Positions 2,902 to 13,857 of a stretch of DNA of 22,542 bases are shown one piece after another (position 1 is the first letter of the stretch; the number at the start of each line of letters is the position of its first letter). The notes under the pieces are model-generated. The model ran no database searches. It saw nothing but the letters and a program-made list of their open reading frames with translations, and was not told the DNA's origin. Source of the DNA: a virus. The position numbers and the translations under genes were made by a program. The stretch spans positions 1 to 22,542 of IMG/VR virus record IMGVR_UViG_3300022752_000422; one strand, 5' to 3'.

Positions 2902-3287
2902 ATTTGCTAACTGGAAAAGTTGGAGAACAAGCACTAGTTGCACAAGCAGTAAGTAAGATGAATTTTTGGGAAACTTATTTTAAATTGCTTAGTCTTAGAA
3001 AGAATTTTAAGTTTGGAGATAGAGCATTAGAAACAATATCTTATATAATGTCTAAAGACCCAACTAAGAATTTCTTTGCTAAACCTCACTCTGTAGATAT
3101 AATGATGGACTTAAGAATGAAAGCACCAAGACTTACTCAAGTTAAGAAAGAATTAATGTCATTAAATTTAATAGATAATTATGGATTTTTATCTGATAAA
3201 TTAATAAAGTTTCATACCTTTGTAATTAATCAGGAAAATGTACAATTTATATTCTCATTTCATATAAATAGTTATGCTTCCAAGTAG
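2892..3287 (+). CDS. Small protein with possible winged-helix fold
   Basis: This 131-residue protein overlaps both neighbours (10 bases upstream, 14 downstream), indicating translational coupling. A helical N-terminal half (VGEQALVAQAVSKMNFWETY) is followed by RALETISYIMSKDP and then VKKELMSLNLIDNYGFLSD. The last part has the spacing of a recognition helix followed by a short wing, as in winged-helix proteins (x-x-x-L-x-x-L-x-L-I-D-x-x-G-F-L). I do not recognise the family. A DNA-binding role, for example a regulator or packaging factor, would fit the HU/IHF-like gene next to it, but this is inferred from a pattern and not from a confident homology. Confidence 0.65.
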   Translation: MEVNLLTGKVGEQALVAQAVSKMNFWETYFKLLSLRKNFKFGDRALETISYIMSKDPTKNFFAKPHSVDIMMDLRMKAPRLTQVKKELMSLNLIDNYGFLSDKLIKFHTFVINQENVQFIFSFHINSYASK

Positions 3288-3567
3288 TAAGAGTGATATA
3301 TATTCAATGGTAGCTAATGATTGTGGAAAGAGTAAAGCTTTAGTAAAATTTGTTATTCAAGACTTTGAACAAAAGTTAAAACATATACTACGAAATCCAC
3401 TAGAGAATACTAAATATGTATTATTAGAATGGTTAGGTAAGTTTAACTTAAAAGATAGAAAATTACTAGCTAAACGTAAAAAGCTAGAAATACATAGACC
3501 AGAAAGTAAAGAACTAGAATATATTAATAACATTATAAAAAAGTATTATGACAAAGAAGAGGTATGA
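3274..3567 (+). CDS. HU/IHF-like DNA-binding subunit
   Basis: A 97-residue protein with the length and layout of an HU/IHF monomer. An N-terminal helical pair (DIYSMVANDCGKSKALVKFV, then IQDFEQKLKHIL) corresponds to the family pattern L-x-x-x-V-A-x-x-x-G-x-S-x-x-x-V-x-x-V-[IL]-x-x-F-x-x-x-[IL]. It is followed by a beta strand and the typical LxxLGKF turn, seen here as LLEWLGKFNLKDRKLLAKRK. The usual long DNA-wrapping beta arm is not clear and is replaced by a Lys/Arg-rich segment and a C-terminal helix. HU/IHF-like genes are known near the structural genes of crAss-like phages, where they may aid genome compaction or packaging. The gene overlaps the preceding one by 14 bases and the next by 20. 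I am fairly sure of the fold and unsure of the role. Confidence 0.7.
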   Translation: MLPSSKSDIYSMVANDCGKSKALVKFVIQDFEQKLKHILRNPLENTKYVLLEWLGKFNLKDRKLLAKRKKLEIHRPESKELEYINNIIKKYYDKEEV

Positions 3568-4189
3568 TAAACCTGCAATGAGTGTAAATGTTGCAGAATT
3601 TGCAGCAGCTAATTTTCCAGACCCTAATAGAAAGATTCTATTTACTGGAATGAGTGGTGAATCAACAGAAGTTGGTAAAGAAAACTTTGATATAGCTAAA
3701 GTAAATGACCATTGGGATAAGACTGAAGAATTAATTAAGAATTATAATGCTAATCTTACAATATTAGATGAAGATTATAAATCTGTAACTCCAGTACATA
3801 TTGCTATAGTAAGAGCTTATCATATTGAAGCTACAAGAACACAATCAGGATTAATTATTGCACCTAAAATACCAATGAAAGAAATGACACAGAATGGTAT
3901 TGGTATTAGACAAACAATTGATTCACCGTGGGCATTCTCAAGAAAATGTGTAGTAGTATCAGTTCCTGAACATGTTACTCATGTAAAAGCTGGAGATATT
4001 GTAGAAATAAATAGACGATGTGTATTAGCTGAAAAACCTTCAGTAGATAGTCCAGCACATTTAGCTCATGGTTTTACGTTATCAGATTGGTATGATTTTG
4101 AATCACCAACAGATATTAATAATAAACATTTTGGTTATTTAGCGGTAGACCCTATAAACGATATTACGTTAATCATTAAAAAATCATAA
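3548..4189 (+). CDS. GroES-like co-chaperonin candidate
   Basis: A 213-residue protein. From about residue 84 it follows the GroES order: a strand (VHIAIVRAYHIE), then a polar mobile-loop-like segment ATRTQSGLIIAP, where GLII occupies the place of the hydrophobic GIVL of GroES. Next come a strand VVVSVPE, the hallmark VKAGDIVEINR (family: VK-x-GD-x-V), and a last strand NDITLIIKK. The predicted GroEL-contact residues L102-I103-I104 follow G101. Differences from bacterial GroES (about 95 aa) are an extra 80-residue N-terminal domain and an insertion before the final strands, so it is at best a divergent relative, comparable in concept to T4 gp31. It overlaps the HU/IHF-like gene by 20 bases. 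If it works with host GroEL, capsid or fibre folding is the likely purpose. An unrelated beta-barrel virion protein is the main alternative. Confidence 0.55.
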   Translation: MTKKRYDKPAMSVNVAEFAAANFPDPNRKILFTGMSGESTEVGKENFDIAKVNDHWDKTEELIKNYNANLTILDEDYKSVTPVHIAIVRAYHIEATRTQSGLIIAPKIPMKEMTQNGIGIRQTIDSPWAFSRKCVVVSVPEHVTHVKAGDIVEINRRCVLAEKPSVDSPAHLAHGFTLSDWYDFESPTDINNKHFGYLAVDPINDITLIIKKS

Positions 4190-4191
4190 TT

Positions 4192-4479
4192 ATGGCTAAA
4201 TTTGTAAAGAAAGCAGGTTGTCACACAGTTAATGTGGGAGAATTTATGGAAGAACTTGGTGATAAGTACATTGACACCAACGGTAAAATAGTTCTTAACT
4301 ATTCAACAGCAGTAAAACTTATTCAGTTTGTTTACAATAAAGCAAACGAAAGTTTTGTTGAATGTGAAGGTAAAGAATTACAAATTGGTTTACCTACTGG
4401 AATGTTTGGAATGATTCTTAAAATGGTACTAAAAACTATTGGTCTTGAAATTAAGTTTACTGAGAAAGTATCTAATTAA
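4192..4479 (+). CDS. Unknown 95-aa protein
   Basis: No family recognised. The protein is 95 residues, starts two bases after the GroES-like gene, and has a mixed composition with a hydrophobic stretch near the C-terminus (GLPTGMFGMILKMVLKTIGL, about residues 66-85) that could be an amphipathic helix rather than a transmembrane segment because it contains two Lys. Its N-terminal HTVNVGEFMEELGDK resembles MSVNVAEFAAANF near the N-terminus of the upstream protein, which might be a shared docking element. Placement suggests co-expression with the GroES-like gene. Confidence 0.65.
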   Translation: MAKFVKKAGCHTVNVGEFMEELGDKYIDTNGKIVLNYSTAVKLIQFVYNKANESFVECEGKELQIGLPTGMFGMILKMVLKTIGLEIKFTEKVSN

Positions 4480-4516
4480 GCATCCTAAAGAATTAATAAG
4501 AGGTTTGGTTTTCATA

Positions 4517-4678
4517 ATGAAAGCCAAACTCTCTCTTTGGTTGATGACTGAAACACATCCATTGGAAAAAGCAAGAAGATGTAAAGAATGCTTTGAAAAT
4601 GGTTACTGTATTGTATGTGGTTGTGATTTTGATGAAATGGTATTAACTAATAAAAAATGTCCTAATGGAAAATTTTAG
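4517..4678 (+). CDS. Cys-rich zinc-ribbon-like mini-protein
   Basis: I choose ATG 4517 (53 residues); a longer reading from TTG 4439 would run through the end of the upstream gene in another frame. Six Cys at positions 22, 25, 31, 34, 36 and 48 form CKECFENGYCIVCGC and KKCPNGKF. Paired C-x2-C motifs of this kind usually bind zinc. I recall small Bacteroidota phage proteins with the same CxxC...GxCxxCGC...CPxGxF pattern beside structural genes, but no function is established. It ends in TAG and overlaps the next gene by 14 bases. A 37-base gap separates it from the previous stop. Confidence 0.65.
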   Translation: MKAKLSLWLMTETHPLEKARRCKECFENGYCIVCGCDFDEMVLTNKKCPNGKF

Positions 4679-5036
4679 TAAAATAGTAGCAACAATAGTT
4701 CAGAGTTTAATATATGCTAAGTATAAACATTGGACTATCAGAAGATTAGGAACTCATGAAGCGTTATCTGATTATTATAGTGAAATAGAACCTTTAGTAG
4801 ATACACTAGTAGAAATATATATGATGGATACGTTTAATATTGTACAACCTAAATCTTTAGATATTCCTCCATCAGATGATGTAATTACTTATTTCAGAGG
4901 TTTAAATAATATGATTAAATCTGCAATAAGTTCAGAAAAAGATGAAGCTATTAAGAATGTAATGAGTGAAATATCTTCAAGTGTAAAACGTTGTTTATTC
5001 AGATTAAAATTAGACGAAATATATGTTGGAAATTAA
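4665..5036 (+). CDS. Short Dps/ferritin-like helical protein (DUF5856-like)
   Basis: A 123-residue, mostly helical protein. Residues 18-52 (AKYKHWTIRRLGTHEALSDY, then YSEIEPLVDTLVEIY) closely follow the start of Dps proteins: [LK]-H-W-x, about eight residues, H-E-x-L-x-x-x-Y, then D-x-x-[VI]-E. The matching metal-site positions would be H22, H31, D46 and E50, all present. It is shorter than Dps (about 150-190 aa), and only the first two helices can be matched with confidence. I recall phage proteins of the DUF5856 family with this appearance. Dps itself binds DNA and iron as a dodecamer; whether this short form does either is unknown. The overlap with the Cys-rich gene (14 bases) suggests coupled expression. 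Confidence 0.6.
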   Translation: MENFSKIVATIVQSLIYAKYKHWTIRRLGTHEALSDYYSEIEPLVDTLVEIYMMDTFNIVQPKSLDIPPSDDVITYFRGLNNMIKSAISSEKDEAIKNVMSEISSSVKRCLFRLKLDEIYVGN

Positions 5037-5271
5037 TTTAGGTGAACACAAAGAGAATAGTGTAGCCACAACAACATTAACTATTGATGAACCTATTGAA
5101 CATACAGAAGTATCTTGTGGATGTTTATCAACTAGTTTTAAAGATAATACTGTAACACTAAATATGAGTGTTGGTAAAGTAAAGAATCCTGATAATAATT
5201 TTTTTGATAGATTTGTACTATTAAAAGTTAATACTAAGGAATATATTGTTAAAGCAAGAGTAATAAGATGA
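5023..5271 (+). CDS. Small beta-rich protein with Cys-Gly-Cys (DUF1573-like)
   Basis: An 82-residue protein, predicted mostly beta. EHTEVSCGCLSTSFKDNTVT at the centre resembles the start of DUF1573 domains (x-V-x-x-C-G-C-T), an Ig-like domain common in Bacteroidota proteins. The C-terminal strands (FDRFVLLKVNTKEYIVKARV) would complete a small beta sandwich. There is no signal peptide, so it is likely cytoplasmic or part of the virion. It overlaps both neighbours, by 14 bases upstream and by 4 bases (ATGA) downstream. Family membership is suggestive only, and a decoration protein is one possibility. Confidence 0.6.
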   Translation: MLEINLGEHKENSVATTTLTIDEPIEHTEVSCGCLSTSFKDNTVTLNMSVGKVKNPDNNFFDRFVLLKVNTKEYIVKARVIR

Positions 5272-5855
5272 TTAAAATAAATTATAGATTATTAGACCAA
5301 GCTACTAACTTTTGGGAGATTAATCCACAGTTTAAGATATATCCACCATTTCATCTGTTGTATGAAAAAGATAAATCTAAAGATAAAGATTTCTCATCAA
5401 GACAAATGTGGACTATATTTTTTATGTGTGACCCTGATGAACACGATAATATATTTTATAGAATGGCTTATGGTGAAAGAAAGAAAGTATTATCAGAAAC
5501 TTTTGTTAAAGACTTAGATTGGGATGATGCTAATTTTGTTAAATGTTTAGAAGCATATCCACTAGAGTGTATGACTGCTGTACAAAGAGCTTATGCAGAA
5601 GAAAAGAATCAATTACAAAAGAGAGCTAAATTAATTGCTGATACAGAATTAACATTAGATACTACAGAGTTTCTTGGAGATAAAGTAGTTGTTGTAAAGG
5701 GTACTGCTACACAAATTAATATGTTACAAAAAGATTCTTTATCTATATATCAGAAGTATCAAAAGATAGAAGAAGAATTTATTAAAGATAAACAATCTAT
5801 TAGAGCTAAAGGTGGTTCTAAATTAACTAAATCAGAAAAAGGAGATTTATGGTAG
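5268..5855 (+). CDS. Unknown 195-aa protein upstream of amidase and terminase
   Basis: No family identified. The N-terminal third (INPQFKIYPPFHLLYEKDKS, then SSRQMWTIFFMCDPDEHDNI) is aromatic-rich. The remainder is helical and charged, ending in a coiled-coil-like stretch (IYQKYQKIEEEFIKDKQSIR) and a basic tail. Similar proteins stand just before the terminase in other large Bacteroidota phages, to my recollection. That position would suit a small terminase subunit, for which there is no other candidate in this window, but no helix-turn-helix is evident, so I do not assign it. It starts within the previous gene (ATGA) and overlaps the amidase by 7 bases. Confidence 0.7.
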   Translation: MIKINYRLLDQATNFWEINPQFKIYPPFHLLYEKDKSKDKDFSSRQMWTIFFMCDPDEHDNIFYRMAYGERKKVLSETFVKDLDWDDANFVKCLEAYPLECMTAVQRAYAEEKNQLQKRAKLIADTELTLDTTEFLGDKVVVVKGTATQINMLQKDSLSIYQKYQKIEEEFIKDKQSIRAKGGSKLTKSEKGDLW

Positions 5856-6388
5856 ATATACAAGTAAAACTAGTAAACAATAATAGACCTGGAAGAAAAC
5901 TTAAAGAGTTAAAAGGTATTATTGTACATTGGACTGCTAATGTAAAACCTACAGCTGGAGCTGAAGCACATCTTAAATATTTTAGTAATACTACAGTACA
6001 AGCTAGTTGTCATTATGTAGTAGATGATAAAAATATTATACAGATGATTCCTGATAATGAAGTAGCATGGCATGTAGGTGATAAACCTAGAAGAGCTAAT
6101 CTACCTATTAGAAGAACTTTAGTTCCTGCTGGAGATAGTGCTAATAATTATTTTATTGGTATAGAAATGTGTGTTAATACTAATAGTAAGTATGAAGATA
6201 CTTTAAGAAATGTTAAGTATCTGATTAATGTATTATTAGCAAGACATAAGTTAACTATAGATAATGTTTACAGACACTATGATATAACAGCTAAAGATTG
6301 TCCAATCATGTATCAACCTAATTATGTTGAAATGCAATACTTTGATTGGTCTTGGATAACATTTAAAGAATATGTCAGAAGTAGCTAA
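5849..6388 (+). CDS. N-acetylmuramoyl-L-alanine amidase (Amidase_2/PGRP type), endolysin
   Basis: A 179-residue single-domain zinc amidase that would cut the bond between N-acetylmuramic acid and L-alanine in peptidoglycan. The three zinc ligands expected for this family are visible: H27 in GIIVHWTAN, H143 in YRHYDIT and C151 in AKDCP. Other family marks are SCHYVVDDKNIIQMIPDNE, VAWHVGD, and NYFIGIEMCVN with the conserved Glu. The length matches the catalytic domain alone, with no cell-wall-binding module and no signal or anchor sequence. Release through a holin or other membrane lesion would therefore be needed, or the protein is carried in the virion. It overlaps the upstream gene by 7 bases and TerL by 17, an unusual direct linkage of lysis and packaging. 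Confidence 0.93.
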   Translation: MVDIQVKLVNNNRPGRKLKELKGIIVHWTANVKPTAGAEAHLKYFSNTTVQASCHYVVDDKNIIQMIPDNEVAWHVGDKPRRANLPIRRTLVPAGDSANNYFIGIEMCVNTNSKYEDTLRNVKYLINVLLARHKLTIDNVYRHYDITAKDCPIMYQPNYVEMQYFDWSWITFKEYVRSS

Positions 6389-8690
6389 TGTAAGTACATG
6401 TATTGATGAATGGGATTTTAAATGGATTCAGATTGAAGATTTAGAAGGAATACTTAATGAGTTTAAACCTCAACTATATCATCCTGATGACCCTAGATAT
6501 AATTCTTTTTGGCAACTAATTCGTTCTAAATGTATTGAAGGTATTTGGTATCCTCAATTTGGACAGTATAGATATGTTCCTGGTAGAATAGGATTCTATG
6601 GGAACTACTGTACTATTGTAGAAACTGATAAGAAAACAAAAGCTAGATTAAAACTAAAACCTAATATCAGAGATATAGAATGGCATTTAGCTTATTATTA
6701 TCTTGAAGCACAAGGATTTTCAGGATTTGAAGATGATGATGAATATACTTGTAATTGGAAAGTATTAAATCCTGATGCTTTCTATATGACACTAGAAGAA
6801 AAAGTTACTATATTTAATAAAAAAGGATTCTTAAAAGAATTTATACATCCTAGAGATTATTTGTTTAAACTCCATGATAAACCATTAGGAAGACCATTAT
6901 ATTATAATGATGCTAAAAACTTTGTTATACTTGGTTCTCGAGGTGGTGGTAAATCATATACTGCTGCACTAATGTGTATGTTGTTTGAATTAATATTTGA
7001 TGGAGAGAAGTATTATAAACCTGGAGATGTAAGAAGAGAATTAAAAGCAGAAATAGATTTAGGTTCAGGAAGAAAAGATAAATCTAGTGAGTTAGCTGAA
7101 AAGATAGAAGCATCACTAAATGAATTAGCACTTAATCAAGAGTTTGGAGTATGGGGAAAACCTGGAGATGATGATTATGAACCATGTCCATTTTGGAAAA
7201 GAATGACAGGACATATTAGTGCTAATAACAAAGATAATCCGTGGCGAAATACTACTCCAGTAAAGATTAAAAATGAATGGAAAGAAATAGGAACTGGTTC
7301 TACACTATATCATAATGTTTATTCTACTAATAAAAGAGATGGTGGACAATCAGGAGCTGGTGGTAGAAGAAATCTTATAGTCTATGAAGAAATAGGATTA
7401 ATGGAGTTATTTATAGAAGCATGGTTATCAAATGATGCTGTAGTTAAAACAGATGGTGAACAGTTTGGCATACAATGGGGAATTGGTACATCAGGTAATA
7501 TAGAAACTATTCATGATGCTATGAAAATATTTACGCATCCTGATGATTATAATTGTTTAAAGTTTAGATATGGAGACCAAGACCAATGTTTGTTTCTACC
7601 AGCATATATAACAGATAAAAGATTTAAAGATAAAAATGGTAATACTGATATTCCTAAAGCATTATCATTTTATCAAGAAGAAGTAAAGAAAGCATCTAAA
7701 TCTTCAGACCCTAAAGTATTAGTAAGACAAAAGATGAACTTCCCACTACGCATAACTGATATGTGGTTATCAGAAGGTGGTTCATTATTACCAGTAAAAG
7801 AAGCTGAAGAAAGAGAAAGAGAATTAGTTAGAGATAACTTATATGAAACACTAGGTACTGCTATTGATATGTATTGGGATAGTGCTGCACAATATGGTGT
7901 TAATTATCAGATTAAAACAAATCCTAAACCTATCTATAACTTTCCAATAAAATCTGGAGATGATTTAACAGGTGAGTTTATGATGTATATAAGTCCTGAT
8001 AAACTAAAACTAAATGGTATTATTCCTAATGATGCTGTTATTGTACTACATGACCCTTATATATCAGATGAAATGGATAAAGGAGGTTCATTAGGTGCTG
8101 CTTATTTTGTTGTTAATCCTAAATATGAAGTATATGGACTTCCAGGAAATGATATAGCAGCTACATATATTGGTAAGAATTTAGATGGTATTGATAGATA
8201 TAATGAGATACTAGAAATGGGAATTGCACTATATGGTAATCCTGTTAGAAACTTATGGTATGAAGCTAATAGAGGAGATAGACTTAGAGCATATTTTCTA
8301 AAGAAAAAGAAAGCTGATTTACTATGTCTTAGACCACAGTTTGAACAAGGACAATTTATTTATTCAAGAACTGTAAGTCAGACTGGATATATAGTAGGTA
8401 ATAGTCTAGCTAAAATATCATTAGTAGATTCTTTTAGAGATTGGCTTTTAGAAAAAAAAGAAATTCAGGGAATAGAAACTTATAATATAGAACGAATTCC
8501 TTGTATATTTACCATTAGACAAATAAAGAGTTATAACATGAAAGGAAACTTTGATGGTGTTTCAGCGTTATTAGGAATAACTCTAGCTATTGGTGAACAG
8601 AATCATAGGATGATGAATAAATCGAAAACTGTAGCATTGCAGACAATACGTAATCATATAAATAATAGATGGAAGCGGTATTCAACTTAA
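6372..8690 (+). CDS. terL: Terminase large subunit (ATPase and nuclease)
   Basis: A 772-residue terminase motor that pumps DNA into the prohead and cuts it. Walker A is GSRGGGKS at residues 188-195, Walker B is NLIVYEE at 334-340 with the catalytic Glu. In the C-terminal RNase H-like nuclease, acidic residues expected to hold metal are D561 (VLHDPYISDE), E631 (LWYEANRGDRL) and D728 (GNFDGVSA). The 187-residue N-terminal extension before the ATPase and the ~170 residues between Walker B and the nuclease make it longer than typical TerL proteins (450-600 aa), as in other large Bacteroidota phages. The start overlaps the amidase by 17 bases; the stop overlaps the portal by 22. Strong call. Confidence 0.95.
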   Translation: MSEVANVSTCIDEWDFKWIQIEDLEGILNEFKPQLYHPDDPRYNSFWQLIRSKCIEGIWYPQFGQYRYVPGRIGFYGNYCTIVETDKKTKARLKLKPNIRDIEWHLAYYYLEAQGFSGFEDDDEYTCNWKVLNPDAFYMTLEEKVTIFNKKGFLKEFIHPRDYLFKLHDKPLGRPLYYNDAKNFVILGSRGGGKSYTAALMCMLFELIFDGEKYYKPGDVRRELKAEIDLGSGRKDKSSELAEKIEASLNELALNQEFGVWGKPGDDDYEPCPFWKRMTGHISANNKDNPWRNTTPVKIKNEWKEIGTGSTLYHNVYSTNKRDGGQSGAGGRRNLIVYEEIGLMELFIEAWLSNDAVVKTDGEQFGIQWGIGTSGNIETIHDAMKIFTHPDDYNCLKFRYGDQDQCLFLPAYITDKRFKDKNGNTDIPKALSFYQEEVKKASKSSDPKVLVRQKMNFPLRITDMWLSEGGSLLPVKEAEERERELVRDNLYETLGTAIDMYWDSAAQYGVNYQIKTNPKPIYNFPIKSGDDLTGEFMMYISPDKLKLNGIIPNDAVIVLHDPYISDEMDKGGSLGAAYFVVNPKYEVYGLPGNDIAATYIGKNLDGIDRYNEILEMGIALYGNPVRNLWYEANRGDRLRAYFLKKKKADLLCLRPQFEQGQFIYSRTVSQTGYIVGNSLAKISLVDSFRDWLLEKKEIQGIETYNIERIPCIFTIRQIKSYNMKGNFDGVSALLGITLAIGEQNHRMMNKSKTVALQTIRNHINNRWKRYST

Positions 8691-12249: not shown

Positions 12250-13857
12250 ATGGAAAGAAAAACCGCTCTTAAAGTAACAGAATACAAAGGATTCGGTGGT
12301 AACTTCTTCGATAGTGTATCTCATAGTGCATTGTTTAGAGATGACCAACCTTATGACTTTGGTGTTATGACAGCTCGTTTGTTTTCTAGTTCAACCAATT
12401 TAGGTTTAACTAACAAACGCTGGAATTATTTAACTATGGCTCAAGGTAATTATTGTGTAATTCCTGGTGGTCGTAATGAGTATGCTTGGTCTGTAATTGG
12501 TGATGCTGATGTTGACTTCCGTGTTACGGAATTGTTAGTTTCAGAAAGCTCTAATCCTGGAAAAGCTAATACTACTTTTGCTATTGCTTTAGACCGTAAT
12601 TGGTTGAAAGCTCCAGTAGTACTAAAGACTGCATCTGATAATGCACCATTGTTAGAAATTATATCTGGTCCAGAACCACTTGGTACTCATTCATTTAGAT
12701 ATGAAGTTAAGATTCAAGATGGTAATCCTAACAGTTGGATTCCTGTAGAATACTTAAAACCTGGACAAGTTATTACTAGAGTATCTACTCGTGTAACTAA
12801 TGAAGAAAATACTAAATATGGTACTGACCAATACTCAAGTCAAATGAAACTTCGTGGTGTTGTAGGTCAATATGCTAATGAAGTATCTTTCACAGATAGA
12901 TTTATTCGTATGGAATTAGCTGCTAGTAAGTCTGGTAAATCTAATACTGGAACTTATGATGACCATGATGGTAAGAAGTATCGTGATGCTTTCTCTCGTG
13001 GACATATCTATCAAGCTAGTTTGAAGAATAAAAACACTAATGAGATTATTCAGAAAGGTATGTTTATTACTAAAGCTGAAGAAAGATTGTTAGAGCGTAC
13101 TGAAATGGATAGAGAGATGATGTGTGAATTTGGTAGATTACAAATTGATACAGACCAAGATTCTAAAAGAGTAAAGAAAACTGCACCAGGTTGGAGACAA
13201 TTAGTTCGTGATGGACAATATATGCCACATGGGGGTAACTTTACACTAAATAACTTATATGATTTCTTACATCAGGTATTATATCGTAGAAGAGGATTTA
13301 TGAATCGTAAACCTATGTTAGTAGGTGGAACTGGAGCTATTAGTTATCTATCAACTTTGATTGCACAACAAGCATCAGTATTCCAAACACTAGAGCCAGG
13401 TTTTGCTTTAAGAGATAATGCTGAACCTACTGGAGTACACAAGTATGAGAAAGAATGGGGTTTCCAGTTTACTCGTATTAAATTACCAATGGGAATTGAT
13501 GTAACTATTATGTATGACCCATCTAAAGATGATGATACATTATACAAAGAGAAAGCACCAGGTTCTTATTTACCATTAGAATCATTTCAAATTGATATCT
13601 TAGAGTTTGGACAAACTGAAAATGCTGCTGAAAACTCTAATGGCAATAACATTTGTATGGTAATGGAAGATAATATTGACTATTACTTCTCTGTAGCTAA
13701 TGCTATTGATTTCAAGAATGGTGTTGTTAAAGATGGTGCTAATGTTTACAAGTTTGGTAAAACATTAAGTATCTATAGAGAAATGAGTGGTTCATTAAAT
13801 ATTTGGGATACTAGTGCGGTAGGTCGTATTGAGTGGGTTCCAGGTTATGTATCGTAA
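12250..13857 (+). CDS. Major capsid protein (HK97-fold, inferred)
   Basis: A 535-residue protein directly after the scaffold-like gene, the usual site and length for a large capsid subunit. An N-terminal region (EYKGFGGNFFDSVSHSALFR) is followed by long beta-rich and helical parts, including RGFMNRKPMLVGGTGAISYL and a C-terminal strand set ending AVGRIEWVPGYVS, as in capsid proteins. I cannot point to a diagnostic motif. Codon choice supports very high expression: by my count there are about 15 CGT arginines here, against about two in the much longer terL. The start ATG 12250 follows an A/T-only leader. The 26-base gap after the stop shows no terminator. Confidence 0.85.
   Translation: MERKTALKVTEYKGFGGNFFDSVSHSALFRDDQPYDFGVMTARLFSSSTNLGLTNKRWNYLTMAQGNYCVIPGGRNEYAWSVIGDADVDFRVTELLVSESSNPGKANTTFAIALDRNWLKAPVVLKTASDNAPLLEIISGPEPLGTHSFRYEVKIQDGNPNSWIPVEYLKPGQVITRVSTRVTNEENTKYGTDQYSSQMKLRGVVGQYANEVSFTDRFIRMELAASKSGKSNTGTYDDHDGKKYRDAFSRGHIYQASLKNKNTNEIIQKGMFITKAEERLLERTEMDREMMCEFGRLQIDTDQDSKRVKKTAPGWRQLVRDGQYMPHGGNFTLNNLYDFLHQVLYRRRGFMNRKPMLVGGTGAISYLSTLIAQQASVFQTLEPGFALRDNAEPTGVHKYEKEWGFQFTRIKLPMGIDVTIMYDPSKDDDTLYKEKAPGSYLPLESFQIDILEFGQTENAAENSNGNNICMVMEDNIDYYFSVANAIDFKNGVVKDGANVYKFGKTLSIYREMSGSLNIWDTSAVGRIEWVPGYVS

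Follow-up and report, generated by a model that had tools for sequence, protein, structure and literature searches.

Among phage co-chaperonins, gp31 of phage T4 is devoid of roof loops, and its mobile loop is lengthened (PMC6318259); folding of the T4 capsid protein gp23 (~56 kDa; PMC6318259) requires gp31 rather than GroES (PMC3012670). Because gp31 has no roof (PMC6318259), the roof hairpin is not required for co-chaperonin function. In crassviruses, which rank with the most abundant phages of the gut and are also widespread elsewhere, the co-chaperonin gene is known by annotation label only, and no dedicated study was found in the literature searched. In crAss001 (MH675552), the reading frames of gp14 ('protein HU') and gp15 ('putative 10kDa chaperonin') overlap by 26 nt, and gp16, gp17, an endonuclease, and the terminase large subunit (TerL) come next; this order is repeated in related crassvirus genomes, and the pairing of HU and co-chaperonin upstream of TerL is annotated in crAss001 and about 20 further genomes.

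The window analyzed here, a virus record of 22.5 kb, is a Crassvirales fragment, as evidenced by a crassvirus major capsid protein (535 aa, 60.5 kDa) encoded at 12250–13857 on the plus strand (Pfam Crass_capsid, E = 1.7e-31) and by a terminase (TerL, 6372–8690, plus strand) nearest to those of Cellulophaga phage phi14:2 and crAss-like phages. The ORF under study, at 3548–4189 on the plus strand (stop included), starts with ATG, encodes 213 aa, and ends with a stop codon at 4187–4189. It was assigned as a GroES/Cpn10-like co-chaperonin gene on the combined basis of the ORF itself, its relatives, PHROG and profile matches, synteny, and Foldseek searches. The original prediction had read it as a GroES-like gene bearing the motifs SGLII and VKAGDIV, and both the ORF and the two motifs were present as claimed. 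Relatives were detected on 18 IMG/VR contigs, with 15 at 88–95% and three at 44–47% amino acid identity, and two further scans returned the same 18 contigs and added none. Nucleotide changes relative to these relatives fell mainly at third codon positions, with 43 synonymous and 25 non-synonymous codon changes against the relative L013; the ORF is a real gene under purifying selection.

The window protein alone gave no significant match in Pfam, PHROGs, NCBIfam, or PDB sequences (hmmscan/phmmer), and it scored below the Pfam Cpn10 (PF00166) cut-off. At the family level, PHROG 3188 ('co-chaperonin GroES') was matched by 8 of 11 members (best E = 1.4e-4), with residues 79–158 of one member (L016) aligning to positions 2–71 of the 96 in that profile. 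Profile–profile comparison (hhalign) placed residues 78–172 of the family on positions 3–85 of GroES with a score of 31.5, whereas 60 column-shuffled controls had a mean of 12.0 (sd 2.3, maximum 21.5) and reversed profiles scored ~10.5. The resemblance to GroES is thus beyond chance, since the score of 31.5 exceeds the shuffled maximum of 21.5. Against the profile of the crAss gp15 family the score was 33.9 (null maximum 21.9), over a match of only 20 columns, and the family exceeded all 60 shuffles for each of three target profiles. An HMM built from a mixed alignment of the window family and gp15 ranked co-chaperonins first among PDB sequences (3.4e-7), with T4 gp31 at 0.012. Matches to Pfam ADH_N (GroES-like) were also seen among the relatives; a dehydrogenase reading of these was rejected: ADH_N shares the fold, yet the proteins lack a dehydrogenase domain and have better scores to co-chaperonins. 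The window protein is very probably a divergent GroES, which in bacteria serves as the lid on the protein-folding chamber. The GroES-like reading of the original prediction was supported by the PHROG and hhalign results, and the profile search that it had proposed, in which a missing match was to count against it, recovered GroES at the level of the family.

The GroES/Cpn10-like core spans approximately residues 78–213 (3779–4186, plus strand), as delimited by the hhalign match, AlphaFold2 (AF2) modeling, and Foldseek. A full-length AF2 run with 11 family sequences reached a pLDDT of 34 and gave no usable model of the N-terminal extension. The core (residues 77–213), modeled with an alignment of 58 family and gp15 sequences, had a mean pLDDT of 57.8, with core strands at ~70–89 and loops below 50. 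A Foldseek search of this model against the PDB returned GroES/Cpn10 as the top two matches, followed by GroES-fold dehydrogenases (weak E-values, 0.58 and worse), and a search of a viral library returned co-chaperonins as the top ten (likewise weak, from 0.014), with crassvirus proteins (cr108_1, a CrAss-like virus) at ranks 11 and 12. This predicted fold is weak in its E-values but consistent in kind, and it may be regarded as partly independent evidence given the gp15 rows in the alignment. A capsid decoration fold, named by the original prediction as the outcome that would speak against it, was pointed to by nothing in these searches; the best structural matches were GroES/Cpn10, and a capsid decoration protein was rejected as a candidate, with no such family among the Pfam, PHROG, or Foldseek matches.

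The neighborhood of the gene resembles that of crAss001 gp15. An HU-like gene at 3274–3567 (plus strand) overlaps the start of the co-chaperonin gene by 20 nt, and a crAss001 gp16 orthologue of unknown function lies at 5268–5855 (plus strand; hhalign probability 97.8, score 81.2). In a matrix of window-neighbor against crAss-neighbor profiles, the main comparisons were highest on the diagonal (HU 20.0, GroES 34.2, gp16 81.2), with the HU and VpsT-like matches weak on their own. For the HU/IHF-like neighbor that had been proposed, the position agreed, and crAss 'protein HU' was its best match among the crAss001-neighborhood families tested (20.0, next 11.9), but this match was weak (HH probability 6%) and HU-type Pfam models stayed below their cut-offs (E = 0.005–0.05).

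Other ORFs were also observed in this part of the window. A Cys-rich, zinc-ribbon-like segment (CKECFENGYCIVCGC) at 4439–4678 is conserved in L033 at 4109–4324, and a DUF5856/Dps-like protein is encoded at 4665–5036 (PF19174, 4.1e-10; phrog_858, 2.2e-14), and the corresponding region of crAss001 contains a 'DpsA' (gp7). The gp16 homologue and TerL are separated by an N-acetylmuramoyl-L-alanine amidase (5849–6388; Amidase_2, 4.5e-23), in the place occupied by gp17 and the endonuclease in crAss001.

The crAss gp15 family itself is close to Cpn10 (HH probability 97.5%), and two gp15-type proteins at the gp15 position exceed the Pfam Cpn10 cut-off. When a profile of 76 gp15 sequences was searched against 2886 ORFs, the next matches were true Cpn10 proteins, short GroES-like crassvirus ORFs, and the window family, most members of which had E-values of 0.002–0.02, at the level of the true Cpn10 proteins. 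Furthermore, every TerL locus with at least ~4 kb of upstream sequence was preceded by a candidate co-chaperonin ORF, 1.4–4.7 kb before the TerL match, with weak matches among the more divergent of these ORFs. The comparison suggests that the crassvirus packaging region very commonly includes a GroES-like gene next to HU and TerL. Like gp15, the window gene occupies the slot after an overlapping HU-like gene and before gp16 and TerL, and the two families have in common an 8-residue roof spacing, a GG/SG-[IL]-I loop motif, and a similar insert after GD[ILV]. They differ in that gp15 lacks the ~80-aa N-terminal extension and has a loop ~20 residues shorter, with a core identity of ~20–30% and a length of 85–164 aa among 76 members (typically ~120–160) compared with the 213 aa of the window protein. 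Judged by position and the common roof-loop deletion in the aligned sequences, the window gene is orthologous to the crassvirus gp15 family. Since gp15 is already labeled a chaperonin and lies beside HU, the window gene is therefore a divergent version of a known type; the pairing with HU pointed out by the original prediction is already annotated in crassviruses, and only the extension and the expanded loop are unusual.

The roof-loop deletion site was located at approximately residues 136–151 (VSVP-EHVTHVKA-GD; 3953–4000, plus strand). The spacing from the AVG/SVP strand to the GD turn was 8 residues in 11/11 window-family members and in 65 of the 69 matched gp15-type members, compared with 16–17 residues, which constitute the roof loop, in the Cpn10 members measured. 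The roof beta-hairpin of bacterial GroES is thereby absent from the window family. The T4 gp31 sequence has 10 residues between SVG and GD, and the loss of the roof in crassviruses, like that in gp31, is possibly a second, independent case of a phage remodeling the folding cage.

The putative mobile loop is expanded and covers approximately residues 94–132 (...RTQSGLIIAPKIPMKEMTQNGIGIRQTIDSPWAFSR; 3827–3943, plus strand), according to the family, gp15, and gp31 alignments. Within it, SGLII of the window protein aligns with GGIVL of GroES and with TESGLII of T4 gp31, and the family motif SG[LI]I[IL] retains the hydrophobic tripeptide after the glycine, with the loop taking the forms TESGLIL or TQSGLII among family members. 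After the tripeptide, ~20 residues (PMKEMTQNGIGIR) are inserted relative to crAss gp15, and this insert is invariant except at one position across both subclades of the window family, giving the clade a conserved expanded loop of the form SGLIIxPxxPMKEMTQNGIGIR.

Approximately residues 1–77 (3548–3778, plus strand) form an N-terminal extension that is absent from the crAss gp15 family, as judged by the alignment and member lengths. The extra N-terminal domain of ~80 residues noted by the original prediction proved real, with the core beginning near residues 78–82. The extension carries FAxxNFPDPNxK as a conserved motif and a helix predicted at low confidence, and it evolves faster than the core, with 19 compared with 6 amino acid differences to L013. 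Profile comparison with the neighbor families found no relative of it, and its origin as a fused neighbor (the kolpuevirus 70-aa ORF, HU, VpsT-like, gp16, or gp17) was rejected with all probabilities at or below 0.3. The 70-aa ORF occurs in kolpueviruses between HU and the chaperonin (L063, 2281–2490; L065, 2279–2488) and is unrelated to the extension. What is new in this clade is the ~80-aa extension together with the expanded, very conserved loop. The extension may add client or partner specificity, with no particular role supported by the tests made. These two elements merit follow-up, as does the roof deletion seen across crassviruses.

Compared with GroES/Cpn10 (PF00166), the window protein keeps the order of core elements, the GIVL-type tripeptide, and (V/K)xGDxV, but differs in its missing roof loop, its extra N-terminal domain, and the long insertions that follow both the tripeptide and GDIV. 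With T4 gp31 and RB49 CocO it has in common the missing roof loops and the longer loop (PMC6318259), the TESGLII-type motif, and a phage use beside a large capsid protein, whereas gp31 is only 111 aa long without an N-terminal extension and sits in another gene neighborhood. The window family gave no significant direct match to the gp31 profile (HH probability 3), and the gp31 family phrog_931 was not among the matches listed for it; crAss gp15 itself matches phrog_931 weakly (E = 0.0006–0.0012).

Phage GroEL genes occur in some crassviruses. On one crassvirus contig (L084, 2375–4326), a roofless GroES-like ORF whose assignment is weak (E = 0.017 against the gp15 profile and no match to PHROG GroES) is followed after 9 nt by a phage GroEL ORF (PF00118, 2e-52; phrog_5725, 1.2e-123), the pair lying between an HU-like ORF and TerL, and GroEL is also encoded near the same module in phi14:2, cr108_1, and cr111_1. 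The GroEL/GroES sets of Flavobacterium phage immuto and phi14:2 resemble the present case as phage-borne chaperonin genes in viruses of Bacteroidetes, but differ in that no GroEL was found on the contigs of the window's clade, which are incomplete (largest 53.6 kb). As no GroEL was found on these incomplete contigs, host GroEL is the likelier partner of the window co-chaperonin. Separately, near-bacterial groES genes were seen in short or unverified contigs among phage-collection records (e.g., OR851569.1, OR847265.1, and OR846590.1), which look like host DNA contamination.

Taken as a whole, the window gene is considered, with a probability of about 0.8, to encode a phage co-chaperonin with the GroES/Cpn10 fold that is orthologous to gp15 and would probably cover GroEL as a roofless lid in the manner of gp31, serving large phage proteins. 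We infer a heptameric ring that would most likely cap host GroEL, or phage GroEL where one is encoded, with SGLII of the long loop docking on the apical domains of GroEL. Lacking a roof and having a longer loop, the lid would make the cage larger or leave it open at the top, as T4 gp31 does, letting large phage proteins fold during infection; the most plausible client would be the major capsid protein, which at 60.5 kDa is larger than T4 gp23 (~56 kDa). Such a gp31-like role is directly testable with the culturable crAss001 and its capsid protein. A more elaborate and rather doubtful version is a separate architecture, in which the N-terminal domain, at or outside the dome opening, recruits or shapes a phage client while the loop insert PMKEMTQNGIGIR makes new contacts with GroEL; if true, one clade of crassviruses would have maintained a folding machine dedicated to a specific client.

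Proteins other than chaperones can have the GroES fold as well, as the ADH_N-type matches illustrate. The window protein could have kept the fold and lost the co-chaperonin function, serving instead in packaging or assembly, e.g., as a scaffold or a terminase/portal assembly factor with the extension and PMKEMTQNGIGIR as binding surfaces. The strict linkage to TerL in crassviruses, the novelty of the extension, and a conservation that is strongest in the inserted segment, outside the classical tripeptide, would fit such a role. However, SGLII is kept and matches gp31 and GroES, phage GroEL co-occurs in some crassviruses and is adjacent in one, and the best matches are co-chaperonins rather than dehydrogenases, making a loss of function unlikely. 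A structural role in the virion, e.g., in capsid decoration or head completion, would agree with the location within the structural and packaging region and with the failure of the window protein to match the family libraries directly. It is nevertheless very improbable, given that the relatives match co-chaperonins, that the positional orthologue in phi14:2 (g096) lacks the MS/MS annotation borne by the phi14:2 virion genes, and that the virion structural atlas (PMC10172136) does not mention crAss001 gp15 in its text; g096 and gp15 together suggest a non-virion status for the crassvirus co-chaperonin. The direct similarity of the window sequence is weak and some alignments are short, such as the one to gp15, which could indicate an unrelated protein with a fortuitous likeness to GroES. 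This too has very little probability, as the scores lie beyond all shuffles for the three targets and the position, roof spacing, PHROG matches, and Foldseek results agree.

Upstream of the HU-like gene, three consecutive window ORFs, at 144–338, 340–624, and 575–2272, have a common motif near their ends, M-x-GG-(K/M)-LLP-(D/S)-(I/V/L)-NK, which recurs in L012 at 3050 and is possibly a sorting or packaging tag.
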